Assembly (NCBI GenBank): GCA_902805985.1
Contig: CADCUW010000554.1
Coordinates: forward strand, 1-10,845
Length of the DNA stretch: 10,845 nucleotides
Direction: 5' to 3'
From: an uncultured Rubrobacteraceae bacterium
GTDB taxonomy: Bacteria; Actinomycetota; Rubrobacteria; Rubrobacterales; Rubrobacteraceae
Both the position numbers and the translations under genes were made by a program. The notes under the pieces are model-generated. The model had not been told where the DNA came from and did not search any database. It saw only the letters and a list, made by a program, of their open reading frames with translations. Of this stretch, positions 557-10,845 are shown piece after piece. The number at the start of each line of letters is the position of its first letter. Within the stretch, counting starts at the first letter, position 1.

Positions 557-2560
557 TCACCACTCCCGCAACACGGCCGCGCCGAACGGTTCGAGGCGGA
601 GCGTCCCGTCTCGCCCGGCGCCGCTCAGCAGATCCACGGTCGGTCCCTCCAACTCCACGTCGGCGGCCTCTTCGCCGTGGTTGAGCACGAAGAGATAGGA
701 GGCTTCCGTGGAGCGACGACGCACCACCTCGACGCCTGGCGGCGCCTCAGACGGCGCCCCTACGCCGGCCTCGGCGCAGACCCTCTCCAGAAGGACCCCC
801 ATGTATCCTGCATCCGGCCTGGTGCCGAGGTAGTAGGCCGAGCCGCCACCATAGGCGTTGCGGGTAACGGCAGGCATTCCCCCGTAGAAACCATCGGCGA
901 AGGTGGTCAGCGCCTCCGCGCCCCGGAGGTGTACGAGGTCCGCCCACAGGTCGCACGAGAAGCTGGCTCCCTCCTCCGTCGCCAGGCATCCGGTCGCCCC
1001 CTCGGCCAGGGGTACGAAGTCCTCGATGGTCAGGCCCAGAAGATCTTTGAACGGCGCCGGGTAACCGCCGAGCCTCACATGGTCGTTCTCGTCCACGATC
1101 CCGGAGAAAAAAGACATCAGGAGCGTGCCGCCGTCCTCCACGAAGCTCCTGACGTTCTCTGCGGCCTCGTCGGTGACGAGGTAGAGGTTCGGGGCGATGA
1201 CCAGGTCGTACGACGAGAGGTCCGAGCCGGGGTGGGCAAAGTCCACGGGGACGTTCGCCTCAAAGAGCGGCCTGTACAGGAAGTAGAGGCCTTCGATCAT
1301 GCGCACGTCCGCCGAAGGCTTGGAATCCAACTCCAGCGCCCACCAGTTGTCCCAGTCGATCAGGACCGCGGTCCGCGCCTCCCCCCTCGTCCCGGATAGA
1401 CCATCGAGCTTGGTGAGGTCCTCGCCGAGCCGTTTCACCTCGGCCCAACTCCGGGAGTCCTCGGGCCTCACATGCGGAACCATCGCGCTGTGGAACTTCT
1501 CGGCGCCCGCCTTAGACTGACGCCACTGGAAGAACATGATCCCGTCGGCGCCCCGGGCGACGGCCTGAAGGCTCCAGAGGCGCATCCGGCCCGGCTCCTT
1601 GGGGGCGTTGCGTCGGCGCCAGTTCACCCTGACGGTCGTCTGCTCCATGAGCACCCAGGAGTTTCCACCGCCCAGGGAGCGCATCAGGTCGCGGTTCATG
1701 GCCGCGAGTACGTGCGCCTCGGGGTCCGAAGGGTCGGGGTAGGAGTCGTCGGAGACGACGTCCTCGCGTCCGGCCCACTTCCAGTAGTCCGCCGGCTTGA
1801 AGAAGCCCATAAAGTTCGTCGTAACGGGAACATCGGGCGTGGCACCGCGCAGGATCTCCCTCTCCATCTCGTAGAGCCCGAGCAGGGCGTCAGAGGAGAA
1901 GCGGCGGAAGTCGAGCTGCTGGGTCGGGTTGGCGAAGGTCGGGGCGGATCTCGGGGGAAGGATCTCGTCCCACCGCCCGTAGCGTTGGCTCCAGAAGGCC
2001 GTCCCCCACGCCTCGTTTAGCCGTTCCAGGTCTCCGTAGCGGTTCTCCAGCCACCTCCTGAAGTGCGCCGCCGACGCGTCGCAGTAGCACTCGGAGACGT
2101 GGCAGCCGTACTCGTTGTTGACGTGCCACATCGCGAGCACCGGGTGGTCCTTGTACCGCTCGGCGATGCGGCCGACCAGCCCGGCAGCCCTCTCCCTGTA
2201 GGCGGCGCTGCTCGGGCAGTAGTGCTGGCGGGCGCCGGGATGCAACACCACTCCGTCTTTCGTCACCGGCAGGCTCTCAGGGTAGAGCCGCGCGAGCCAA
2301 GGCGGGGGGGAGGCCGTCGCGGTGGCAAGGTTCGCCATTATGCCGTTCTCGTGCAGGAGATCGAGTAGACGGTCCAGCCAGCCGAAGTCGTACTCGTCCG
2401 GCTGGGGCTCTAGCTTCGCCCAAGAGAAGATGCCTACCGAGACCAGGTTCACGTTCGCCGCGCGCATCAGGCGGACGTCCTCCGCCCAGACCGACTGGGG
2501 CCACTGCTCAGGGTTGTAGTCGCCGCCGTAGATGATGTGGGGGACTTTCGGGGTGATCAA
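557..2560 (-). CDS. GH42 family beta-galactosidase
   Basis: Glycoside hydrolase family 42 retaining enzyme that removes non-reducing beta-galactose (some members take alpha-L-arabinopyranosides); probably cytoplasmic, as no signal peptide is seen. At 667 aa it is full length. The N-terminal TIM barrel begins with the family signature YGGDYNPEQWP (11-21). The acid/base is Glu150 in WHVNNEYG and the nucleophile is Glu306 in LMEQTT. Cys115, Cys153, Cys158 and Cys160 match the zinc-binding cysteine cluster of many GH42 enzymes. A trimerisation-type domain follows (about 390-600), then a small C-terminal beta domain. The start is TTG at 2560, chosen because AGGAGGT (2567-2573) lies six bases upstream and no ATG or GTG fits. 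The TTG overlaps the stop of the permease remnant (TTGA), implying translational coupling. It is the last gene of the minus-strand run. The family call is very secure; the substrate is inferred. Confidence 0.95.
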   Translation of the reverse strand: MITPKVPHIIYGGDYNPEQWPQSVWAEDVRLMRAANVNLVSVGIFSWAKLEPQPDEYDFGWLDRLLDLLHENGIMANLATATASPPPWLARLYPESLPVTKDGVVLHPGARQHYCPSSAAYRERAAGLVGRIAERYKDHPVLAMWHVNNEYGCHVSECYCDASAAHFRRWLENRYGDLERLNEAWGTAFWSQRYGRWDEILPPRSAPTFANPTQQLDFRRFSSDALLGLYEMEREILRGATPDVPVTTNFMGFFKPADYWKWAGREDVVSDDSYPDPSDPEAHVLAAMNRDLMRSLGGGNSWVLMEQTTVRVNWRRRNAPKEPGRMRLWSLQAVARGADGIMFFQWRQSKAGAEKFHSAMVPHVRPEDSRSWAEVKRLGEDLTKLDGLSGTRGEARTAVLIDWDNWWALELDSKPSADVRMIEGLYFLYRPLFEANVPVDFAHPGSDLSSYDLVIAPNLYLVTDEAAENVRSFVEDGGTLLMSFFSGIVDENDHVRLGGYPAPFKDLLGLTIEDFVPLAEGATGCLATEEGASFSCDLWADLVHLRGAEALTTFADGFYGGMPAVTRNAYGGGSAYYLGTRPDAGYMGVLLERVCAEAGVGAPSEAPPGVEVVRRRSTEASYLFVLNHGEEAADVELEGPTVDLLSGAGRDGTLRLEPFGAAVLREW

Positions 2561-2808
2561 GCGTTTACCTCCTCGAGGGTGGTGGTGACGCGGGTCGTGG
2601 CGACACCTTCGGGGTTCCGGCCGTCGAACCAGCCCCCGTTCGCTTCCCGCTCCCAGTCTTTCAAGCTACCGAAAGTGAGGCCGCCCTGCCAATATCTCTG
2701 CAAGAACAGGAAAGACACGACGATGGAGACCAGCGCCCCGGCGATGACCAAAGGGTACGGGTTCTGTGCCCCGCCCTCCCCGCTCGCCAGGTCGTTCCAC
2801 AAGGCCAT
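2557..2808 (-). pseudogene. C-terminal remnant of a CUT1 (MalG-type) sugar ABC permease
   Basis: This 83-codon frame encodes one membrane segment (about residues 18-36, YPLVIAGALVSIVVSFLFL) followed by QRYW-x-GGLTFGSLK. That is the usual C-terminal end of the second permease subunit of CUT1 carbohydrate ABC transporters (final TM, then QRY[FW]-x-x-G[LI]-x-x-G-[SA]-[VL]-K). Such permeases are normally about 270-300 aa with six TM segments, so roughly three quarters is missing, including the EAA motif that contacts the ATPase. The reading frame is open upstream to a TGA at about 2880 but shows no permease sequence before 2808. The break lies close to the end of the TIM-barrel gene (stop at 2838). 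The ATG at 2808 has only a weak ribosome site. Its end carries the Shine-Dalgarno and TTGA overlap for GH42, which may be why it is kept. A translated small membrane protein is possible. Confidence 0.75.
2567..2573 (-). promoter_or_regulatory. Shine-Dalgarno AGGAGGT for GH42 TTG start
   Basis: Read on the minus strand, AGGAGGT is followed by AAACGC and then TTG (2560-2558). The perfect spacing fixes the unusual TTG as start. The site lies inside the last codons of the permease remnant. Confidence 0.8.
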
Positions 2809-2837: not shown

Positions 2838-3605
2838 CTAGTCTCCCGCCAAACCCCGCATCGCCTTGAGGCTGATCTCAACGTCTTCCATCGCGTCCTG
2901 CGGGTTGTCCTGCTCGACTATGAACCACTCGACGCCGAGTCCGTCAGCCGCTCTCAGGAGGTCCGGCCACGGCATGGTGCCCTCCCCGACCGGGAGATCC
3001 GAGCGGGTCTCATCAGGGGCCATGTCCTTGAGGTGGACGAGAGAGACGCGGTCTCCGACGCCACGCAGCACGGTCTCGGGGTCCGAGCCACCGTACTTGA
3101 TCCAGTACAGGTCGAGCTCGAAGTGGACCAGGTCCGGGTCGGCCTCCCGGACGAGCACGTCCCACATCGTGGTCCCGCCGAGGTTGTTGCCTAGGGGGGC
3201 GAACTCGAAGTCGTGGTTGTGGTAGGAGAAGGTCAGGCCTTCGGCGCGGCAGAGTTCGCCCCAGCGGTTGAAGTCTTCGGCGAGGCGGGAGATCGAGTCC
3301 GCGTCCCCGCGGCGCTCCGGCGGCACCATCGGGACCACGGCGTGGGAGGAGCCTACAGCGTGCATGTCGGCGATGACGGAGGCGGGGCCCGCGTCCCAGG
3401 CGTCGAGGGGGACGTGGGCGCCGGAGGCACGGAGTCCGAGGTCGTCGAGAACGGCGCGGAGTTCTTGGGCAGAGAGGCCGCCGAAGCCGGCGGTCTCGAC
3501 GGCGGTGTAGCCCATCTTCGATAGACGGCGGAGGGTGCCCGGCATGTCGCGGGCCGTGCGCCCGCGGAGGGTGTAGAGCTGGAGCGAGATCTGGTCTTCC
3601 CTCAT
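2838..3605 (-). CDS. Sugar phosphate isomerase/epimerase-type TIM-barrel protein (second copy)
   Basis: AP-endonuclease-2/xylose-isomerase-like TIM barrel of 255 aa, the usual length for short members of this family. They use a divalent metal to isomerise, epimerise, dehydrate or eliminate sugars and keto-sugars. Visible likely metal or catalytic residues are Glu37 (AVETAG), His64 (GAHVPL), His129/His131 (YHNHDFEF), Glu163 and Asp165 (FELDLYW), His191/Lys193/Asp194 (VHLKD) and Glu231 (IVEQDN). GEG at 207-209 is also a family motif. There is no signal peptide. The ATG at 3605 overlaps the stop of the preceding oxidoreductase (ATGA), so the two are probably co-translated and act in one pathway. 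It is clearly different in sequence and length from the TIM-barrel protein at 8485-9486, so it is not a recent duplicate. The exact reaction is unknown; 3-keto-sugar elimination or hydration is a context-based guess. Confidence 0.88.
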   Translation of the reverse strand: MREDQISLQLYTLRGRTARDMPGTLRRLSKMGYTAVETAGFGGLSAQELRAVLDDLGLRASGAHVPLDAWDAGPASVIADMHAVGSSHAVVPMVPPERRGDADSISRLAEDFNRWGELCRAEGLTFSYHNHDFEFAPLGNNLGGTTMWDVLVREADPDLVHFELDLYWIKYGGSDPETVLRGVGDRVSLVHLKDMAPDETRSDLPVGEGTMPWPDLLRAADGLGVEWFIVEQDNPQDAMEDVEISLKAMRGLAGD

Positions 3606-4711
3606 GCGTCACCCCCAAAGACCTTCTCTCCCGCCGGCAGCGGCTCCGGACGGTCGAAGGTGCTCCCTACCTCGACGTGCCGGCCGCCTTCCGAGGAGTC
3701 CAGAAAGGCGTGGATGACGTCGAGGACGTGCCCGCCAAGCTCGCCGCTGGCGCGGTGCTCCTTGCCGGAACGGAGGGCCTGGGCCATTTCCGCGAGCCCG
3801 AGTCCGCGGCTGTTCTCGGTGTACGGATGGGTGAGCGGCACGTTGTTCCAGGTCTCGTCGCCGGAGCGCCAGACGCGCACGGGGCCGCCGAAGGTGTTCG
3901 GGTCGGGGACGCTCAGGGTGCCTTCCGTGCCGTAGATGTCGATCCGGGAGTGTTCCTCGGACCAGACGTCGAAGCTGGTGACGAGCGTTCCTACGGCGCC
4001 GCCCTCAAAGTCCATCACGCCGGCGACGTGGGTCGGAGTGTTCACCGTGATGGTCGACCCCGCTAGCGGCTCGCTCGTGACCTGCCGCTCCGGGAAGGTG
4101 ACCCGGGCGGAGCCGGTGACGCGGCGCACCGGTCCCAGGAGCGTCGCGAGCGCGGTCAGGTAGTAGGGGCCCATGTCGAACATGGGCCCTGCGCCGGACT
4201 GGTAGAAAAAGTCCGGGTTGGGGTGCCAGTCCTCAGGGCCGTGGGTCATCATGATGGCCGTCGAGGCGACGGGCTCGCCGATGATGCCCTCGTCCATCAC
4301 CTTGCGGCAGGTCTGGAGCCCCCCGCCGAGAAAGGTGTCGGGGGCGCAGCCGATCAGGAGTCCTCTCGCCTTCGCGACCTCCAGCAGCAGCCGCCCGTCC
4401 TCGCGGCTCACGGCCAGCGGCTTCTCGGTGTAGACGTGCTTGCCGGCCTCCAGTGCTGCCAGCGAGACCTCGGCGTGGACCGCCGGAACGGTCAGGTTCA
4501 GAACGACTTCGACATCGGGGTCCGCGAGCATCTCGTCTGGGGTGCAAGCCTTCGGCACGCCGTAGGAGCGCGCCTGCTCCTCCGCCCGCTCCACCAACAA
4601 ATCAGCGCAGGCGACGATCTCCACGTCGTCGAAGATCTCCCCGTTTTGCAGGTAGATGCCGCTGATCTTGCCCGCCCCCATTACCCCGATCTTTACAGGC
4701 CCGTTCTCGAT
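3602..4711 (-). CDS. Gfo/Idh/MocA-family oxidoreductase with apparent ATC start
   Basis: NAD(P)-dependent sugar oxidoreductase, 369 aa if begun at ATC 4711, 359 aa from ATG 4681. From the ATG the protein would start at MGAGKISG, inside the dinucleotide-binding loop, without the first Rossmann strand. The ten codons upstream supply it (…PVKIGVMGAGKISG). No ATG, GTG or TTG lies in frame between the upstream TAG (4763-4765) and 4681. At 4709-4711 an ATC stands seven bases from a strong AAGGAGG (4719-4725), where a start codon belongs. Numbered from the ATG, the catalytic motif is Glu86-Lys87-Pro88 (TEKPLA) and the second-domain motif is Asp169 (FDMGPYY). The gene follows the ThuA-like gene after an 80-base gap and overlaps the next TIM-barrel gene by ATGA. 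The family is certain; substrate and direction of the redox step are not. Confidence 0.9.
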   Translation of the reverse strand: MENGPVKIGVMGAGKISGIYLQNGEIFDDVEIVACADLLVERAEEQARSYGVPKACTPDEMLADPDVEVVLNLTVPAVHAEVSLAALEAGKHVYTEKPLAVSREDGRLLLEVAKARGLLIGCAPDTFLGGGLQTCRKVMDEGIIGEPVASTAIMMTHGPEDWHPNPDFFYQSGAGPMFDMGPYYLTALATLLGPVRRVTGSARVTFPERQVTSEPLAGSTITVNTPTHVAGVMDFEGGAVGTLVTSFDVWSEEHSRIDIYGTEGTLSVPDPNTFGGPVRVWRSGDETWNNVPLTHPYTENSRGLGLAEMAQALRSGKEHRASGELGGHVLDVIHAFLDSSEGGRHVEVGSTFDRPEPLPAGEKVFGGDA

Positions 4712-4718
4712 GGCGCCG

Positions 4719-4725
4719 CCTCCTT
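4719..4725 (-). promoter_or_regulatory. Shine-Dalgarno AAGGAGG placing an ATC start codon
   Basis: AAGGAGG on the minus strand is followed by seven bases (CGGCGCC) and ATC (4711-4709). It is among the best ribosome sites in the window, yet no normal start codon follows at the right distance. The nearest in-frame ATG is 30 bases further on and would remove the first Rossmann strand. Confidence 0.7.
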
Positions 4726-4731
4726 GTCGTT

Positions 4732-4745
4732 GGGCCTTGAGGCCC
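4732..4745. repeat. Small GC hairpin in the intra-operon gap
   Basis: GGGCCT (4732-4737) and AGGCCC (4740-4745) are reverse complements, realistically a 5-bp stem with a TTGA loop. It sits in the 80-base gap between the ThuA-like gene and the next oxidoreductase, just upstream of its ribosome site. It could be a processing or attenuation element. It is short and may be chance. Confidence 0.3.
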
Positions 4746-4791
4746 GAGGCTCTGAGGTTTTCCTAGCGCCTCGAATCTCAAAGCTTTCCCT

Positions 4792-5436
4792 TCACCTGCT
4801 CGCCCAGAGCATGCCGCGCTCGACCAGCGTCCTAGCCTCCGGCACGTCGAAATCTTTGGCGACGTGGCCGAGGGAGGAGTAGAAGACCCGGCCCTCACCC
4901 CAACGGCGTTTCCAGACCACCGGCATGACGGCCCCCTCTATCCAGGGGGTGTGCTCGCCGGAGAAGGTGGTGGTCGCCAGAACCTCGTTGGTGGGGTCCA
5001 CGTGCATGTAGTACTGCTCGGAGTGCATCCGGAAGTCTTCGAGGCCAGCGGTTATGGGGTCGTCGTGGTCGACGACGGTGACCTCGTAGTCGATGATGTT
5101 GCCGGGGTGGGCGACCCACTGGCCGCCGACCATAAACTGGTAGCGGATGCTCCCGCGGAACGAGTCGGCCATGCCGCCGTGCCAACCGGCGAGGCCGACG
5201 CCGCCCTCGACGGCGCCGATGAGACCCTGCTCCTGCTCCTCGGTGATAGTGCCCATCGTCCAGATCGGGACCACAAGATCGAGGGCGCGAATCTTCTCCT
5301 CATCGAGGTAGGAGTCGAGGGTCGTCGAGATCTCGACCCCGTAGCCGTTCTCTTCCAGGAAGGGCACGAAGATGCGGGCGCACTTCTCGGGCTCGTGGCC
5401 CTCCCAGCCACCGCAGACGAAGAGCGCAGACTTCAT
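4792..5436 (-). CDS. ThuA-like domain protein (second, divergent copy)
   Basis: A 214-aa protein of the ThuA-like class, which has a flavodoxin/glutamine-amidotransferase-like fold and is found with keto-sugar oxidoreductases. Visible features are the N-terminal strand [13 protein letters not shown] (4-16), GLAGWHGGM (81-89) in place of the nucleophile-elbow region of amidotransferases, SEQYYMH (139-145), and the C-terminal [16 protein letters not shown] (176-191) typical of ThuA-like domains. His14, His86, His145 and His191 are candidates for metal or substrate contact. The ATG at 5436 overlaps the upstream oxidoreductase stop (ATGA), which decides the start; the open frame extending to 5883 is antisense-like noise inside the neighbour. 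It is quite unlike the classical ThuA at 6626-7336, so it likely handles a different substrate or step. ThuA-like proteins are linked to keto-glycoside breakdown; the reaction here is inferred only. Confidence 0.88.
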
Positions 5437-6533
5437 ACGGCCTCTTCCTCGGCGACCTCCCGAAGGGAGACCTCGCGGTTCTGCAGGGCGGAGGCGTAGC
5501 AGGCGTCTATGATGCGGGCCCGGTCCAGGCCGTCTTCCCCGTGCTGCCCGGCCCAGTCGCCGCCCCGGATCGTCTCCACGAAGCGCCGGACGACGGCGAG
5601 GTGCCCCTCGCGCGGCTCTATCTCGGGCGTTACGACGGCCGGCACGCCCGCGACGTCCGTGTAGATTCGGACGGTGTCGCTGGTGCCGTAGTTCTTTACC
5701 TTCATCTCGGCGCCGCCGTCGGTGCCGTAGAGGGTCACGCCGAAGTCGTCGCTCGACTCGCGGTAGGCGGCCCAGCCGGTCTCCAGGTTCAGCGTCGCGC
5801 CGCCGGAGAGCCGTATAAACGCCGTTGCCAGGTCCTCGACCTCGTAGGGGCTGTCGCCGGTCATGAGGCCCTTGCCGGCCCACCCGCCGCGTCCTCGGGG
5901 GCCGAGCTCGGCGTAGGTGGCGCAGCTCACGGTCTCTACCTCCGGGTTCCCCATCAAGAAGAGGGCCATGTCGACCATGTGGACGCCGAGGTCTATGAGC
6001 GGACCGCCGCCGGCCATCTCCTTGCTGGTGAACCAGCCGCCCATACCGGGTATGCCGTTGCGGCGCATCCAGGTCGCCTTGGCGTGGTAGATCCTGCCGA
6101 GGTTCCCCTCCTCGATGTGCCGCTTGAGCGCCTGCACATCGCCCCGCTCGCGCTGCGTAAAGGCTATGTGGACCGCCCTGCCGGCCTCCCTGGCGGCCCG
6201 CACGATCCCTTCGGCCTCGACCCCCGTCCGCGCCAGCGGCTTCTCGCAGAGCACGTGCCTGCCCCCCTCTAGCGCCGCGATGGCGATGGGCGCGTGCAGG
6301 TGGTTCGGCGCCCCGATGCTCACCACGTCGAGATCATCCCTGGCGAGCAGATCCTCCCAGCTCCTGTACAGGTTCGGGACCCCGTACCGCCCGCCAAGAT
6401 CCTTGAGCCGCTCCTCCTCCAACCCGGCCAGCGCCACGGCCTCCACGTTCGGCATCCGAACGAAGTTCTTCAAGTGCTGCTCCCCGGCGTAGCCGAGGCC
6501 GACCACCCCGACGCGCAGCGGCTCCACATTCAT
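5433..6533 (-). CDS. Gfo/Idh/MocA-family oxidoreductase, central gene
   Basis: NAD(P)-dependent sugar or polyol oxidoreductase of 366 aa, a normal size. The N-terminal Rossmann fold shows [11 protein letters not shown] (7-17). CEKPL gives the catalytic Glu97-Lys98-Pro99, and the C-terminal domain has [11 protein letters not shown] with Asp181 and His185. The stretch [18 protein letters not shown] (160-177) is typical of a subgroup of these proteins annotated as putative sugar dehydrogenases. I chose ATG 6533 because the Rossmann strand begins right after it. An in-frame ATG at 6575 would add 14 residues of no evident use and cannot be excluded. The gap to the upstream ThuA gene is 92 bases (50 with the longer start). 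The end overlaps the second ThuA gene by ATGA, so this oxidoreductase and that ThuA form a tight pair. Substrate unknown. Confidence 0.92.
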
Positions 6534-6625
6534 GCTCTCTCGTTGCAAAAGACCCTCCAACGTTGCGCTCCTCATCGACCTCTACGAACAAAGCCCCGCC
6601 ACCAACGAACTGATGCCTGAAACCT

Positions 6626-7336
6626 CTATTCCAGCGGGTTCGTGTTGCCGTAGATCGGCGCGGCGCCCGGCGTCGGGGCGGCCCAGCGCACGGCGTTCTC
6701 TATGACGCGGAGCACGTCCGGGTTGTGGTAGGAGGGGTTCTCCTCGTGGCCCGGTCGGAAGTAGAAGATGCGGCCAGAGCCCCGCCTGTAGCAGAGCCCG
6801 CTCCTGAAGACCTCCCCCCCGCCGAACCAGCTCACGAAGACCAGCTCGTCCGGCTCGGGCACGTCGAAGTGCTCCCCGTACATCTCCTCTTCGAGCTCTA
6901 TGTACTCGCCGATGCCCTCTGCTATCGGGTGGCCGGGGGCGACGACCCAGAGGCGCTCGGTGTCGTCGTGGCGCCACTTCAGGTCGCAGGTCGTGCCCAT
7001 GAGCCTCTTGAAGATCTTCGAGAAGTGGCCCGAGTGGAGCACTATAAGGCCCATCCCGTTCAGGACCCGCTCGTGGACCCGGTCCACCACCGCATCCGAG
7101 ACCTCATCGTGGGCGATGTGGCCCCACCACAGGAGCACGTCCGTCGAGCCGAGGACCTCCTCCGTCAGCCCGTGATCGGGCTCGTCGAGGGTGGCCGTGC
7201 GGACGTCGAGGTCTCTCTCACCCAGGGCGCCGGCGAGGGTGGCGTGAATGCCCTCGGGGTAGATCTTCGCGACCTCCTCGTTGGCTCTCTCGTGCCTGAA
7301 CTCGTTCCAGACCGTGACGCGCAGAGCACCTTCCAA
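6626..7336 (-). CDS. thuA: ThuA, trehalose-utilization-type protein
   Basis: A 236-aa protein with the full pattern of classical ThuA, known from the rhizobial trehalose/sucrose utilisation locus, where it works with the oxidoreductase ThuB through 3-keto-disaccharides. Visible blocks are [11 protein letters not shown] (6-16), [14 protein letters not shown] (68-81), [19 protein letters not shown] (96-114), [10 protein letters not shown] (151-160), [14 protein letters not shown] (167-180) and [16 protein letters not shown] (191-206). The repeated His residues (His72, His76, His101, His104, His156, His197) suggest a metal or catalytic cluster. The start is TTG at 7336, directly after the upstream TAA (TAATTG), with a G-rich ribosome site (GGGGGGGA) about five bases before it; the family's first strand begins at residue 6. 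It is coupled to the levoglucosan-dehydrogenase-like oxidoreductase, the counterpart position to ThuB. The family is very clear; the natural substrate need not be trehalose. Confidence 0.93.
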
Positions 7337-8485
7337 TTAGATCCCCCCCAACTCGGGTTTCGTCCATCCGCCGACCTCCACGCTCCGCTCCACGGCGTCG
7401 AGGACCGCCTGGCAACGATACGCGTCCTCGAAGGTCGGCGCAGGGCTCTCCCCCGCCCTTATGCCGTCCATGAGGTCCTTCATCGTGTGGACGAAGGTGT
7501 GCTCGTAGCCGATGATGTGCCCCGGCGGCCACCACGCCCCGGCGTAGGGATGCCCTGGCTCCGTCACGTTGACCGTCCTGAAGCCCTGCACGTCCGCGTC
7601 GTCGTCCACGAAGAACACCTCCAGCTCGTTCATCCGCTCCAGGTCGAAGGCGACGCTGCCCTTCGAGCCGTTTATCTCGAACGCGTTCTTGTTTCTCCGC
7701 CCGGCGGCGAACCGCGTCGCCTCGAAGGTGCCCACAGCCCCGTTCTCGAAGCGCGCCAGAAACGCCGCCGCGTCGTCCACCGTCACCCAGCCCGTCACCC
7801 TGCCCGTCTCCCCGTCAGAACCTTCGAGGGGACGCTCCTTCACGAACGTCTGCGTCATCCCCGTGACCTCGGAGATGCCGCCGACGAGAAAGTGGGCGAG
7901 GTCGACGCTATGGGCGCCTATGTCCCCTAAAGCGCCCGATCCGGCAAGCTCCTTTCTGAGGCGCCAGATCAGGGGAAACTCAGGGTCCATGATGAAGTCT
8001 TGCAGGTACGTCGCACGCCAGTGCCGGATGGTCCCGAGCCGCCCCTCGTCTATGAGCTTCTTCGCCAGTTGGACCGCCGGGGCCCGCCGGTAGTTGAAGC
8101 AGACGGCGTTTATCGTCCCGGCGGCGCGGGCGGCGTCGAGCATCTCCCCGGCTTCGGCAAGCGTGTTGGCGAGCGGCTTCTCGCAGATGACGTGCTTTCC
8201 GGCCTCGAGGGCGGCCAGCACGATCTCGCGGTGCGTGTACCCCGGCGTTACCACGTCCACGAGCCCGACGTCGTCGCGCTCGACGAGCCTGCGGTAGTCC
8301 GTCTCGTATGAAGGCCAGCCCAAAGAGTCCGCGGCCTCCCTGACGCCCGACTCGTCCCGGCCGCAGATGGCGGCCATGCGCGGGGCCGGGTCGACGTCGA
8401 AGAAGCGGGGGAGCTGGCGGTAGGCGTTGGAGTGGGCGCGGCCCATGAACTTGTAGCCGACGAGGCCGACGCCTATCCCGGCCAC
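7337..8485 (-). CDS. Gfo/Idh/MocA oxidoreductase, levoglucosan dehydrogenase/ThuB-like
   Basis: NAD(P)-dependent oxidoreductase of 382 aa. It opens with GVGLVGYKFMGRAHSNAYR (5-23), a variant nucleotide-binding loop with the FMG-x-AH signature of enzymes that oxidise C3 of sugars such as levoglucosan. It continues with CEKPL (catalytic Glu102-Lys103-Pro104), FNYRRAPAVQLAK (130-142), YLQDF (160-164), and SGALGDIGAHSVDLA (183-197, with Asp188 and His192). The NYRR and YLQD blocks also resemble levoglucosan dehydrogenase as I remember it. The start is GTG 8485, sharing one base with the upstream TAG (TAGTG) and preceded by GAGGGAGG; the frame open to 8656 lies inside the neighbour and is not coding. 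It is the direct neighbour of an IolE-like TIM barrel and of ThuA, the expected set for making a 3-keto-sugar and then processing it. The substrate is a hypothesis. Confidence 0.93.
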   Translation of the reverse strand: MAGIGVGLVGYKFMGRAHSNAYRQLPRFFDVDPAPRMAAICGRDESGVREAADSLGWPSYETDYRRLVERDDVGLVDVVTPGYTHREIVLAALEAGKHVICEKPLANTLAEAGEMLDAARAAGTINAVCFNYRRAPAVQLAKKLIDEGRLGTIRHWRATYLQDFIMDPEFPLIWRLRKELAGSGALGDIGAHSVDLAHFLVGGISEVTGMTQTFVKERPLEGSDGETGRVTGWVTVDDAAAFLARFENGAVGTFEATRFAAGRRNKNAFEINGSKGSVAFDLERMNELEVFFVDDDADVQGFRTVNVTEPGHPYAGAWWPPGHIIGYEHTFVHTMKDLMDGIRAGESPAPTFEDAYRCQAVLDAVERSVEVGGWTKPELGGI

Positions 8486-9486
8486 TACTCCTCCCTCGCG
8501 AACGCGGCGTCGAAGGCCTGCGCAGACGGCGCGAAGTCCGTGCGCCGGGCGAAGGCGAGCGCGTCCTGCGCCCCGTACTCGCGGTCCATCCCGGAGTCCT
8601 CCCACTCTATGGAGAGCGGCCCCTCGTAGCCGATGCGGTTGAGCGCGCGCACGCACTCCTCGAGGTCGACGTCCCCGTGCCCCGGCGAGACAAAGTCCCA
8701 GCCGCGTCCGGCCTCGCCGAAATCGAGGTGGGAGGCGAGGATGCTACGCCTGCCGTCTAGGCGCTTGCGGGAGTCCTTTATGTGGAAGTGGTAGATGCGC
8801 TCCGCGAACTCCTCGATAAACGCCGCAGAGTCTAGGAACTGGTGGGCGAGGTGGCTCGGGTCGAAGTTGATGCCGAACCCCTCGCGGTTGCCGATGGCGT
8901 CGAGGGCTCTCTTCGTGGTGACGAAGTCGTAGGCGATCTCCGTCGGGTGAACCTCGAGGCCAAAGCGCACCCCCTCCGCGTCGAAGACGTCGATTATGGG
9001 GTTCCAGCGCTCGGCGAAGTCCTCGTAGCCACGCTCTATCTCGGCCGGGTCGTTGGGCGGGAACGAGTAGAGCAGGTGCCAGATGGCCGAGCCCGAGAAG
9101 CCGTTTACCTGCGTCACCCCGAGCCTCGCGGCGGCCCTGGCCGTGTCCTTCATCTTGTCTGCGGCCCTGGTGCGGACGCCTTCGGGGTCCCCGTCGCCCC
9201 AGACGTCCGGGGGAACCGTTGCCCTGTGGCGGTTGTCTATCGGGTCGCAGACGGCCTGGCCGACGAGGTGGTTGCTTATGGCCCAGCAGTTGAGGCCGTT
9301 TCTGCGCAGGATCTCCCACCGGCCCTCGACGTAGCCGTCCTCGCCGAGCGCCCGGTCGACGTCGAAGTGGTCCCCCCAGCACGCGAGCTCCAGCCCGTCG
9401 AAGCCCCACGCGCCGCATTTTCTGGCCAGCTCCTCGAGCGGCAGGTCAGCCCATTGTCCTGTGAACAGCGTTACCGGCCTTGCCAC
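8485..9486 (-). CDS. IolE-like sugar phosphate isomerase/epimerase TIM-barrel protein (first copy)
   Basis: A 333-aa AP-endonuclease-2/xylose-isomerase-like TIM barrel, longer than the copy at 2838-3605. Metal-site residues expected for the family are visible: Glu33 ([12 protein letters not shown]), Glu178 and His180 (GLEVHP), Asp209 and His212 (NFDPSHL), His235 (YHFHIKD), and Glu294 (SIEWED). PGHGDVD (268-274) is the usual loop before the last strands. The start is GTG 9486, chosen because AGGAGGG lies six bases upstream and the family begins at [11 protein letters not shown]. An in-frame ATG at 9516 would add ten residues and has a weaker site. The gene ends with TAG overlapping the next GTG, so it is co-translated with the levoglucosan-dehydrogenase-like enzyme. 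In keto-sugar pathways such barrels eliminate, hydrate or epimerise the 3-keto product. This is inferred from context, not visible in the sequence. Confidence 0.92.
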
Positions 9487-9492
9487 AGTACG

Positions 9493-9499
9493 CCCTCCT
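9493..9499 (-). promoter_or_regulatory. Shine-Dalgarno AGGAGGG deciding the GTG start at 9486
   Basis: AGGAGGG on the minus strand is followed by CGTACT and GTG (9486-9484). It lies downstream of the alternative ATG (9516) and supports the shorter protein. Confidence 0.7.
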
Positions 9500-9532
9500 A
9501 TTCGCCTCTCCCTCATGGTCCGTCCCTACAGC

Positions 9533-10534
9533 TTAACGCCCGGTCGCGGGCTCCTCCTCGCCGGGGTACCGCAGGCCCCAGGCGGCCCGGATCTCATCCA
9601 TCGCATCCATCACGGAGACAGTCTCCTCCAGCGGCATGATCCGGCTCTCCCTCTCCCCCGCCGTCAGGCACCGCATCACCTCTTCGGCCTCGTACCGGAA
9701 GCCGTTGTCCTCGGTGGGCTCCTTTACGACCTCGTCTTCCCGGCCGGGACGCGAGATGGTCATCGCCTCGGGCTGCCACCAGGGGCTGTGTATCCTCGCG
9801 TACCCTCCCGTACCCAGGACCGTCGCCTCGTGCGGCGAGGCGGTGCGGGTGCCGGCGGTGATGGCGGAGATCCGGCCTTCCCCGTGCTCCAAAGTGGCGG
9901 CGAACTGCTCGTCCACCCCGGTCTCCCCGAGGTGCGAGAGACCCGTCCCCCGGACCGGTTTTCCGAGGACCATCGAGGCGAACGAGACGCAGTAGACGCC
10001 CACGTCGAGCAAGGCGCCCCCGCCGAGCTTCGGGTCGAACAGGCGCGAGGCCGGGTCGAGCTCCGCCCTGAAGCCGAAGTCCACGGTGAGCATCCGCGGC
10101 TCGCCTATGGCCCCGTCCGCGAGCATCCGCCGCAGCCTCCCCATCAGGGGAAAGAAGCGCGTCCACATGCCCTCCATCAGGAACAGGTCCCTCTCCCTGG
10201 CGAGCCCGACGAGCCTGCGGGCCTCCGCGGCGTTGACGGTAAAGGGCTTCTCGCAGAGCACGGCCTTGCCGGCCCGCAGGCAGAGCTCCGCGTTCTCGGC
10301 GTGGAAGGGGTGGGGGGTTGCGACGTAGACGACGTCCACGTCGGGGTCAGCGGCGAGCTTCTCGTAGCTTGGGTAGGCGCGGGCGAAGCCGTGGGCTTCG
10401 GCGAAGCGGTCGGCGGAGTCCCCGGAGCGGGAGCCCACCGCGAGCGTCTCGGCCTCCGGCAGGGCGGCGAGGGCCTCGGAGAACCGGCCGGCGATGCTGC
10501 CGGCGCCGATGATCCCCCAGCGCACCCGGCTCAC
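9533..10534 (-). CDS. Gfo/Idh/MocA oxidoreductase, dihydrodiol/D-xylose dehydrogenase type
   Basis: NAD(P)-dependent oxidoreductase of 333 aa and first clear gene of the run. The Rossmann start is RWGIIGAGSIAGRF (5-18). CEKPFTVNAAEA (94-105) holds Glu95-Lys96-Pro97. EGMWTRFFP (121-129) and GGGALLDVGVYCVSFA (171-186) are hallmarks of the dihydrodiol dehydrogenase / NADP D-xylose 1-dehydrogenase / anhydrofructose reductase branch, which differs from the other three oxidoreductases here. The start is GTG at 10534; a second in-frame GTG at 10525 lies just before the first strand and neither has a good ribosome site. The 10534 start overlaps the stop of a possible 39-aa upstream peptide (GTGA), which would explain the poor site by translational coupling. 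A gap of 46 bases follows before the IolE-like gene. It may be the step that reduces a keto-sugar back to an aldose or oxidises a free sugar. Confidence 0.92.
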   Translation of the reverse strand: MSRVRWGIIGAGSIAGRFSEALAALPEAETLAVGSRSGDSADRFAEAHGFARAYPSYEKLAADPDVDVVYVATPHPFHAENAELCLRAGKAVLCEKPFTVNAAEARRLVGLARERDLFLMEGMWTRFFPLMGRLRRMLADGAIGEPRMLTVDFGFRAELDPASRLFDPKLGGGALLDVGVYCVSFASMVLGKPVRGTGLSHLGETGVDEQFAATLEHGEGRISAITAGTRTASPHEATVLGTGGYARIHSPWWQPEAMTISRPGREDEVVKEPTEDNGFRYEAEEVMRCLTAGERESRIMPLEETVSVMDAMDEIRAAWGLRYPGEEEPATGR

Positions 10535-10729: not shown

Positions 10730-10749
10730 AGCGGCTCAAAGGCTAGAGG

Positions 10750-10845
10750 CTACTTGACCTTGCCGAAGATAAGGACGCCCTTCTCCGTGTCCCAGTAGAT
10801 CGTCTCCGCATCGTGAATAAGGTCCCTCAGCAGCTTGCCGTCCTC
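10750..10845 (-). CDS. C-terminal fragment of an unidentified gene (right edge)
   Basis: The last 31 codons of a gene that enters from the right edge and ends in TAG at 10750-10752. It reads KLLRDLIHDAETIYWDTEKG (4-23) and ends FGKVK. Third positions are G or C in 27 of 31 codons, as in the sure genes, which supports real coding sequence. The fragment is charged and soluble in character with no membrane segment. I do not recognise a family. The hairpin at 10701-10729 probably ends its transcript, so it is likely outside the downstream operon. Confidence 0.7.
   Translation of the reverse strand, partial: EDGKLLRDLIHDAETIYWDTEKGVLIFGKVK

Follow-up and report, generated by a model that had tools for sequence, protein, structure and literature searches.

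The oxidoreductases, eliminases and hydratases of the non-hydrolytic route of glycoside cleavage are known, and the thuEFGKAB genes of Sinorhizobium are a trehalose operon. The Agrobacterium tumefaciens operon GlycDH-OGE-HYD-Gfo covers four steps with one Gfo reductase, as described in the available portion of PMC10628242. The levoglucosan pathway (LgdA-LgdB1-LgdB2-LgdC) proceeds by oxidation, elimination, hydration and reduction, according to the available portions of PMC7676230 and PMC10066097. GH4 glycosidases carry out an equal net chemistry in one active site (in the same portions of PMC7676230 and PMC10628242), unlike the locus described here, in which the chemistry would be spread over several proteins.

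We analyzed a stretch of 10,845 nucleotides (the window) from an uncultured Rubrobacteraceae bacterium (contig CADCUW010000554.1). The host is a soil bacterium. From sequence comparisons, we favor with moderate confidence a reading in which an eight-gene operon in the window encodes non-hydrolytic glycosidic-bond cleavage by oxidation, elimination, hydration and reduction, with ThuA proteins as alternative cleavage enzymes, one shared tail, and a gene order that arose from stacked gene pairs.

Eight genes in a single coupled run

All eight genes are on the minus strand in a single tightly coupled run, as an earlier sequence-only reading had stated. Gene calls were based on the ORF list and a Pfam scan (PF01408, C-terminal Gfo domain, PF01261 and PF06283). 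Matches were all above cut-off and gave the composition that had been read before: four Gfo/Idh/MocA oxidoreductases (PF01408 plus a C-terminal Gfo domain), two TIM-barrel proteins (PF01261) and two ThuA-like proteins (PF06283). The order of transcription is GFO4-TIM2-GFO3-THUA2-GFO2-THUA1-GFO1-TIM1. We call the run coupled because the spacings in this direction are 16, -7, 0, 50, -4, about 80, and -4 bases. THUA1 (4792..5436) takes up just the final 214 codons of ORF 4792-5883, and GFO1 (3602..about 4711) probably starts at an ATC codon at 4711. A promoter scan found one promoter-like site versus 0.7 in shuffled sequences, and a terminator scan found two terminator-like sites versus 4.4; both scans are uninformative. 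The plus-strand ORF at 326-535 had no match above cut-off in the Pfam scan.

A proposed route with several entries and one exit

GFO3 and/or GFO2 would form a ketone at C3 of a glucoside or disaccharide by oxidation, as their family and motif suggest. TIM1, a predicted metal enzyme, would beta-eliminate the aglycone or second sugar and leave 2-hydroxy-3-keto-glucal, TIM2 would add water to give 3-keto-glucose, and GFO1 would reduce 3-keto-glucose to glucose. The two ThuA proteins would cut 3-keto-glycosides beyond the reach of TIM1, possibly alpha-linked ones, with THUA2 paired with GFO2 or GFO3, as ThuA is with ThuB, and THUA1 paired with GFO1. All of these cleavage entries would feed the one hydratase-reductase tail.

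Keto-sugar chemistry of the levoglucosan or ThuAB kind, which the sequence-only reading had suggested, is supported by the AtOGE-like site of TIM1, the match of TIM2 to 8ro4, and the relatives of GFO3 and GFO2. That reading saw all of the families twice and offered two routes or one long route. The set does not look like two copies of one route, because the TIM barrels resemble an eliminase and a hydratase, which are different steps, and the Gfo proteins differ in clade and motif. The choice becomes one of several entries and one exit.

TIM1 (2838..3605) is a probable 3-keto-glycoside beta-eliminase of the AtOGE type. It matched the solved 3-keto-glycoside beta-eliminase AtOGE (8bvk) with 124 bits, and the alignment keeps eight of the eight metal-site or catalytic residues named for AtOGE, including the catalytic His. 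Six of the eight are invariant and one is nearly so in a 17-row TIM1 alignment, in which the last site position is missing from some rows. The active site matches, and the activity is predicted from it. TIM2 (8485..9516) is a probable 2-hydroxy-3-keto-glucal hydratase, based on PF01261 and its matches to 8ro4 (134 bits), an entry with that name and presumably AtHYD, and to 2zds (469 bits), whose entry states no function.

The locus resembles the Agrobacterium operon, as far as the latter is described, in its four predicted steps, in the OGE active site common to TIM1, in the likeness of TIM2 to the solved hydratase, and in having a predicted Gfo reductase. However, the first oxidation there is by a flavoenzyme (in the available portion of PMC10628242), whereas in the window it is probably by Gfo proteins, and the window adds a pair of ThuA proteins as well as more Gfo proteins.

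ThuA proteins as possible alternative cleavage enzymes

THUA2 (6626..7336) belongs to the trehalose-operon ThuA family. It is 62% identical to S. meliloti ThuA over 219 residues and matched 1t0b with 387 bits. THUA1 belongs to a second ThuA family (PF06283, 170 bits) and had no match at 1e-3 in a PDB sequence search. The predicted models had pLDDT values of 87 (THUA2) and 91 (THUA1). The locus is like thuEFGKAB (L225) in this ThuA and in the place of ThuB in our 66-sequence tree, as sister to the clade of GFO3 (support 86), but ThuB is in a separate clade and its best identity, to GFO3, is only 26-31%. The Sinorhizobium operon is without TIM barrels, and the window has the second ThuA family. 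ORFs and Pfam matches in the window's run included no ThuEFGK-type sugar ABC transporter, only a permease remnant.

We propose, from sequence and gene context, that the ThuA proteins may be another means of cleaving 3-keto-glycosides, perhaps alpha-linked ones, with a common hydratase-reductase tail. A more specific version is tentative: both ThuA families could be an unrecognized class of 3-keto-glycoside-cleaving enzymes on a glutamine-amidotransferase-like fold, a non-orthologous replacement of the TIM-barrel eliminase that is specialized for alpha-linked 3-keto-trehalose or 3-keto-sucrose. If true, the operon would act as a hub, with three bond-cutting enzymes that differ in the linkages they prefer supplying a single hydratase and a single reductase. 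In the partial account at hand, 3'-keto-maltose is not cut by AtOGE, which would make a partner that acts on alpha linkages useful. We found no assignment of ThuA catalysis in the open-license literature or in the names of ThuA-like PDB entries; the solved relatives were taken from a Foldseek ranking and then VIA-align on that ranking, and folds absent there stay possible.

Outside the genus, GFO1 is mostly found beside either TIM1 or ThuA

THUA1 adjoins GFO1 in many genomes, and within the window's genus THUA1 and TIM1 are on the two sides of the same GFO1. We compared 31 GFO1-anchored loci outside the genus and G015, a genome of another genus, made up of 16 genomic places and the best 15 of 1162 plasmid records (loci reached only through ThuA anchors were left out). 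TIM1 was adjacent in 11, ThuA in 15, neither in 5, and both in none. The genomic places had TIM1 in six, THUA1 in six, and both in none; the best 15 plasmid records had TIM1 in five, ThuA in nine, and both beside one GFO1 in none. Two of the five loci with neither stop less than 2 kb from the end of their contig, and one has ThuA genes 3.4 kb away. The values for this lack of overlap, 0.026 (16 loci) and 0.002 (15 loci; 0.019 when the two weak ThuAs are left out), are overstated because related loci were counted as independent. Only three to four partner changes are needed on the GFO1 tree and a single origin is possible, so the either-or pattern may rest on few events.

Four genomes (G043, G270, G347 and Paracoccus AK26) have one GFO1 locus of each kind. 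In G043, one is TIM2-GFO3-GFO1-TIM1 (L030), an order that is also contiguous in Arthrobacter ERGS1:01 (L041), and the other is GFO3-TIM2-THUA1-GFO1 (L166), with THUA1 in the place expected for TIM1. Deinococcus aetherius has GMC oxidoreductase-TIM1-GFO1-TIM2, which follows the logic of the Agrobacterium operon.

It is also conceivable, although we consider it unlikely, that the four-enzyme route is right and that the ThuA proteins do not cleave bonds but are isomerases, epimerases or clean-up enzymes for free keto-sugars, or accessory proteins, with cleavage by TIM1 alone or by unlinked enzymes. Among 80 THUA2 neighborhoods kept of at least 582 confirmed loci, 16 have a TIM1-like gene in the same stretch, a pattern in which ThuA may serve an additional step. 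In four of those 16 (Bacilli L067, L099, L108 and L122), THUA2 is between TIM1-like and TIM2-like genes, as a gene for an extra step would be. The co-occurrence of TIM1 and both ThuAs in the window's genus and the closest solved ThuA-like relatives, which are without assigned catalysis, fit as well. However, seven loci would then have no linked cleavage enzyme: L043, L215, L216, L048 and L062, which are GFO3-ThuA-GFO1 sets with no TIM genes within the fetched stretch, and L035 and L036, in which GFO1-ThuA is accompanied by a transporter and the fetched stretch is free of TIM1. The place of THUA1 in L166 also argues against this alternative. Against our main reading, no second dehydrogenase was seen within the fetched stretch of the rhizobial GFO1-THUA1 loci.

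We prefer the reading of the ThuA proteins as alternative cleavage enzymes. That one type of oxidoreductase has TIM1 or ThuA as its neighbor, and that both are in one operon in the window's genus, makes the question assayable. If ThuA splits 3-keto-disaccharides, then many bacterial and archaeal loci with ThuA and Gfo genes would be readable as keto-glycoside pathways. In the partial account available, a hydrolase for 3-keto-trehalose is known from a different family, DUF1080, which counts against ThuA as the cleavage enzyme.

Gene order is largely kept in the genus

The whole order is kept among relatives, where the sequence-only reading had proposed to look for it. In a sample of nine genomes of Rubrobacter kin (G000-G008), the full eight-gene order was present in five (G000, G003, G004, G005 and G006), three of which have extra genes between GFO4 and TIM2 (one in G004, two in G005 and G006). 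The cluster is interrupted by contig ends in G001 and G002, with the visible part consistent with the order, and the order is broken in G007, where THUA1 is missing. G008 has GFO1 alone on a 3.0-kb contig of an assembly that is 79% complete, and order cannot be judged there. G015 is without TIM2 and GFO3.

Independent occurrence of the genes, which would have spoken against the cluster as a unit, was found in part: smaller sets occur elsewhere, but the same partners recur in them (TIM2-GFO3, GFO1-TIM1, THUA1-GFO1, and GFO2 with THUA2). This recurrence fits modules of one chemistry.

The mirror-symmetric order of seven genes that had been pointed out is by itself weak evidence, and the eighth gene, GFO4, falls outside the mirror. 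Six of the 210 orders of two TIM, three Gfo and two ThuA genes are palindromic; among the six orders in which Gfo genes alternate with the rest, two are. The near-palindrome is probably a by-product of stacked recurrent gene pairs. We rejected inverted duplication as its cause because the mirrored paralogs are dissimilar and each Gfo protein is in an old clade; the mirrored pair GFO3 and GFO1 even differs in motif (His versus Tyr).

Recent duplication had been set aside from the sequence, and our comparisons exclude it. The Gfo proteins are 26-34% identical over the aligned part, THUA1 and THUA2 are 27% identical over 97 residues (E 0.001-0.002), and TIM1 and TIM2 had no match at E≤1 (all by blastp). 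In the 66-sequence tree, the four Gfo proteins are in four separate clades, as expected of old paralogs. The clades of GFO1, GFO2 and GFO3 include members from other phyla, and that of GFO4 includes one from a different family within the phylum.

The oxidoreductases and other possible routes

Families of C3 dehydrogenases and of Gfo reductases are both in the run; the direction and substrate given here for each Gfo protein are predictions. In a motif alignment, the active-site residue is His in GFO2 and GFO3, and Tyr in GFO1 and GFO4. GFO3 (7337..8491) and GFO2 (5433..6575) look like 3-dehydrogenases, the former probably NAD-dependent, acting on glycosides, and levoglucosan dehydrogenase- or ThuB-like, the latter probably acting on glucosides and YcjS- or DgpA-like (177 bits to DgpA, 7xr9). 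GFO1 has the motif D-M-G-P-Y, with D-x-[GA]-P-Y in 25 of 25 clade rows, and is a probable 3-keto-sugar reductase, as read from gene context. GFO4 (9533..10534), which opens the run, has the motif D-V-G-V-Y. Among solved structures, its closest relatives are 2o48, a dihydrodiol dehydrogenase (245 bits), and 3rbv, a sugar 3-ketoreductase (114 bits). GFO4 may add another reductase or dehydrogenase to the set.

The top NCBIfam model for GFO3 is that of levoglucosan dehydrogenase (LevoglcsnDh), and its PDB matches were 4h3v (459 bits) and 6a3f (329 bits), the latter of which we take to be levoglucosan dehydrogenase. These matches are what would be expected of an operon dedicated to levoglucosan or another anhydrosugar, with GFO3 as LgdA, TIM1 as LgdB1, TIM2 as LgdB2/B3 and GFO1 as LgdC, and the Lgd pathway has the same four steps with two Gfo and two TIM-barrel proteins (in the available portion of PMC7676230). 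Nevertheless, we think this improbable. GFO3 scored 402.1 bits, below the curated cut-off of 650, which also leaves levoglucosan unsupported as the specific substrate. The window has ThuA proteins, whereas the available portions of the Lgd accounts name none. We dropped the firm assignment of GFO1 as LgdC because LgdC is described, in the portion at hand, with His at the position of the GFO1 Tyr, and kept that of a probable reductase by context. This mismatch also counts against our main reading.

A route of the E. coli Ycj type, in which the TIM barrels would be keto-sugar epimerases and rare glycosides would be oxidized, epimerized and reduced to glucosides, seems quite improbable. The ycjM-W cluster (L034) has a TIM barrel and a Gfo protein, YcjS (annotated as D-glucoside 3-dehydrogenase), that adjoins the GFO2 clade (support 96, long branch), and the Gfo-TIM-Gfo order would fit. 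However, blastp at 1e-4 matched YcjR (annotated as 3-dehydro-D-guloside 4-epimerase) to neither TIM1 nor TIM2, and these match an eliminase and a hydratase instead. YcjQ fails to align with the Gfo motifs; it has the longest branch in the tree, and its position there is uninformative because its aligned sequence has no EKP motif. Inositol catabolism, suggested by weak NCBIfam matches to inositol 2-dehydrogenase and IolE, is highly improbable, with scores that fall well short of the cut-offs (IolE, 46-47 of 290 bits; IolG, 72-107 of 355) and no other iol-type models in the NCBIfam scan of nine proteins.

The neighboring genes vary among relatives

A GH42 beta-galactosidase gene (557..2560, minus strand; Pfam, 527 bits) neighbors the run and is probably not a constant member of the operon. 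Between them, a minus-strand ORF (2557..2808) includes what is left of the C terminus of a sugar-ABC-transporter permease, with the similarity at 2656-2808. This remnant is 72% identical to the G002 permease over 54 residues and had no match in the Pfam scan. GH42 also adjoins TIM1 in G003 and is 8.3 kb away in G002, and the cluster's neighbor differs between relatives. A deletion, of which the permease remnant is the trace, probably brought GH42 close to the run, so the hint of beta-galactosides as substrates, which the sequence-only reading had raised, is weak. Transporter genes are near the cluster in G002, G004 and G005, and G002 also has a GH4 gene near the cluster (L023).

The eight genes form a conserved unit

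The eight-gene keto-sugar cluster of the sequence-only reading was real, and the run was more than chance. ORFs together with Pfam matches gave GFO4, TIM2, GFO3, THUA2, GFO2, THUA1, GFO1 and TIM1 (Gfo/Idh/MocA oxidoreductases, TIM-barrel proteins and ThuA-like proteins) on the minus strand from 10534 down to 2838, with spacings of 16, -7, 0, 50, -4, about 80, and -4 bases from GFO4 to TIM1. The window (67% G+C) is the entire contig C554 of a 4.2-Mb assembly in 707 contigs (G000), and the two ThuA matches in this genome are both within the cluster.

Conservation of the whole order had been proposed as a check, and the order was complete in five of nine genomes of the genus (G000, G003, G004, G005, and G006). 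It was interrupted by contig ends in G001 and G002, with nothing contradictory; G007 was without THUA1, and GFO1 alone was found in G008, on a contig of 3.0 kb. Between GFO4 and TIM2 there was a fifth Gfo (GFO5) in G004, and a fifth Gfo plus an aldo/keto reductase (AKR) in G005 and G006. G015, from another genus, had GFO4, AKR, GFO5, THUA2, GFO2, THUA1, GFO1, and TIM1, without TIM2 and GFO3. Based on these complete, partial and extended orders, we conclude that the run is conserved as a unit, with pieces gained and lost. Matches to THUA2 were found in 15 of 60 genomes, own genome counted, and the closest named loci were from Rubrobacter MAGs.

The mirror order of the genes was not due to recent duplication, as the first reading had held. 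The Gfo paralogues of the window were 26-34% identical, THUA1 and THUA2 were 27% identical over 97 residues, and TIM1 and TIM2 gave no match at E<=1. In a tree of 66 sequences, GFO1 to GFO5 fell in separate clades, each Gfo of the window in its own; members from other phyla were in the clades of GFO1, GFO2, GFO3, and GFO5, and the GFO4 clade reached a different family within the phylum. The dissimilar paralogues and separate Gfo clades also rule out an inverted repeat as the origin of the mirror.

Parts of the run were found apart from it: TIM2-GFO3 (L041, L030, L161, L029), GFO1-TIM1 (L205, L207, L209, L221, and others), THUA1-GFO1 (L035, L036, L163, L165, L168, and others), GFO2 with THUA2 (L030, L041, L047, L051), and GFO3-ThuA-GFO1 (L043, L215, L216, L048, L062). 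Priestia filamentosa and Bosea are among the cultivated carriers of GFO3-THUA1-GFO1 or GFO1-THUA1. Among the loci examined, adjacency of GFO2 and THUA1 was confined to the window's genus and G015. By calculation, a set of this composition has 210 orders, six of them palindromic, or two of six if Gfo alternates with the others. Four loci of Bacilli (L067, L099, L108, L122) were also mirror-like, with other paralogues, in the order Gfo-TIM-ThuA-TIM-Gfo around THUA2.

Predicted chemistry of the cluster

The keto-sugar chemistry first proposed was right in kind. In place of "two parallel routes or one long route", the cluster is better read as a single non-hydrolytic pathway in which several modules for entry and cleavage share a common tail. 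On this reading it is a new combination of parts already known.

TIM1 resembled an eliminase and TIM2 a hydratase. The top solved relative of TIM1 was 8bvk (123.7 bits), which we took as the Agrobacterium tumefaciens 3-keto-glycoside eliminase AtOGE because its residue numbering fits the residues in PMC10628242. The site residues described there, E39, H66, H132, H134, E161, D163, H189, and E233, correspond in order to TIM1 E37, H64, H129, H131, E163, D165, H191, and E231; E37, H129, H131, E163, D165, and H191 were invariant in 17 aligned relatives and H64 nearly so. As described in that source, AtOGE converts C3-oxidised beta-glucosides to aglycone and 2-hydroxy-3-keto-glucal, and its H134A variant is dead (PMC10628242). 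TIM2 matched 8ro4, named 2-hydroxy-3-keto-glucal hydratase, at 134 bits, and 2zds ('putative DNA-binding protein') at 469 bits.

The oxidoreductases had different relatives. GFO3 scored 402 bits with the levoglucosan dehydrogenase model, below its cut-off of 650, matched the solved proteins 4h3v (459 bits) and 6a3f (329 bits), and was the sister of ThuB, of the trehalose operon, in the tree (support 86). GFO2 matched DgpA at 177 bits, and YcjS adjoined its clade (support 96, long branch). GFO4 matched dihydrodiol dehydrogenase (245 bits) and sugar 3-ketoreductase (114 bits), and GFO1 had no solved relative at 1e-20. The motif was D-x-[GA]-P-Y in 25 of 25 rows of the GFO1 clade and D-x-G-V-Y in all five of the GFO4 clade; His was at the Tyr position in GFO2 (8/8 rows), GFO3 (16/16), both ThuB, and YcjS. 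KijD10 and glucose-fructose oxidoreductase are known to have Tyr at this position.

Gene context makes GFO1 the probable reductase. The order in Deinococcus aetherius was GH3, GMC oxidoreductase, TIM1 (30%), GFO1 (56%), and TIM2 (59%). The Agrobacterium operon, where oxidation by a flavoenzyme and reduction by a single Gfo are described (PMC10628242), has the same logic. Counting against a firm assignment of the Tyr-type GFO1, LgdC of the levoglucosan pathway is described with His, and the stretches of the rhizobial-type GFO1-THUA1 loci contained no second dehydrogenase.

Neighbours of GFO1 and a possible role for ThuA

Among the GFO1-anchored loci counted outside the genus and G015, no GFO1 was beside both TIM1 and a ThuA. 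THUA2 belongs with the ThuA proteins of trehalose operons (62% identity to that of S. meliloti); THUA1 represents a second family, found in 14 of 396 genomes of the phylum at 1e-20, own genome counted. Anchoring on GFO1 gave 26 places, of which 16 remained once the ten from the genus and G015 were set aside. GFO1 adjoined TIM1 in six (L030, L204, L205, L207, L209, L210), THUA1 in six (L163-L168), neither in four (L203, L206, L208, L211; L203 and L211 are <2 kb from a contig end), and both in none of the 16. Among the best 15 of 1162 plasmid records with GFO1 matches, all fetched, the partner was TIM1 in five (L042, L214, L220, L221, L222), ThuA in nine (L043, L044, L212, L213, L215, L216, L217, L218, L219; identity was only 30-31% in L044 and L219), neither in one (L223, two ThuAs about 3.4 kb away), and both beside one GFO1 in none.

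Both kinds of locus can occur together. G043, G270, and G347 each had one TIM1-kind and one ThuA-kind GFO1 locus; the two of G241 were both TIM1 kind. In G043, the clearest case, L030 had TIM2-GFO3-GFO1-TIM1, separated by a regulator from GFO2-THUA2; the other locus, L166, had GFO3-TIM2-THUA1-GFO1 following transporter genes. In L218 (Paracoccus AK26), a ThuA-partnered GFO1 was followed a few kb on by a second GFO1 with TIM1. The GFO1 tree requires 3-4 switches of partner, but its well supported branches are compatible with one origin; the window's GFO1 grouped (91/94) with ThuA-partnered GFO1s from GFO3-ThuA-GFO1 loci.

The ThuA proteins are candidate alternative cleavage enzymes; simple replacement of TIM1 by them had several observations against it. 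A TIM1-like gene was in the stretch of 16 of 80 THUA2 loci (80 kept of at least 582 confirmed); in L067, L099, L108, and L122, THUA2 was between TIM1-like and TIM2-like genes, with Gfo genes outside; and GFO1 lies between THUA1 and TIM1 in the window's genus. Additionally, the DUF1080 hydrolase BT2157 of Bacteroides is described for 3-keto-trehalose. Predicted models of THUA1 (pLDDT 91) and THUA2 (pLDDT 87) had the ThuA fold, and the closest solved chains (4e5v, 4jqs, 1t0b) were ThuA-like, with names that give no function. THUA1 H14, H86, D91, H110, E140, and H191 were invariant in 21 rows, suggestive of a putative active or metal site. Because AtOGE is described as not cleaving 3'-keto-maltose, action on alpha linkages is a natural guess for ThuA.

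Some individual records were unusual. In L217 (Paracoccus liaowanqingii plasmid), the ThuA beside GFO1 was unannotated and matched as two pieces in different frames, probably a broken copy. L223, a plasmid of the archaeon Halarchaeum, had adjacent genes of both ThuA families, one matching the THUA2 reference set at 64% and the other that of THUA1 at 36%; its GFO1 was about 3.4 kb off. L035 (CP090106.1), 3.7 Mb long, is labelled Sinorhizobium meliloti plasmid pSymB; the stretch examined carries tsaD and sdh genes, and the record is perhaps a mislabelled chromosome.

Flanking genes and the start of GFO1

Nearby glycosidases and sugar transporters varied among relatives. A GH42 gene adjoined the cluster in G000 and G003; G002 had GH42 near it, with GH4, transporter genes, and an intact permease in between; G004 and G005 had transporter genes nearby; and one GH1-like and one GH2-like gene were identified by eye in G015. 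In the window, a sugar-transporter permease remnant (2557-2808, minus strand; 54 residues matching the G002 permease at 72%) lies 3' of TIM1, before the GH42 beta-galactosidase, and shows a loss of material from the TIM1-GH42 interval. In G003 the permease remnant in this gap was weaker, and a GH4-like piece was recognised there by eye.

At 10743-10845 (minus strand), 5' of GFO4, is the end of a small gene; the full-length 83-residue protein upstream of GFO4 in L018 and L021 had no Pfam match above cut-off. Nor did a plus-strand ORF (326-535), which looks by eye like a portion of a LacI-type regulator and is possibly a decayed one.

The first in-frame ATG of GFO1 (start region 4681-4727, minus strand) falls inside the first strand of the Rossmann fold, with no in-frame ATG, GTG, or TTG 5' of it; AAGGAGG lies seven bases 5' of an in-frame ATC. 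L018, L021, and L023 were similar, L020 had a GTG further upstream, and L022 and L024 had ATG in place of the ATC; the ATC is perhaps a conserved start.

A second cluster in the same genome (L032, contig C630) had three Gfo genes, the GFO3-like member 37% identical, with a GntR-like gene, a solute-binding-like gene, and, by eye, a TIM-barrel-like gene.
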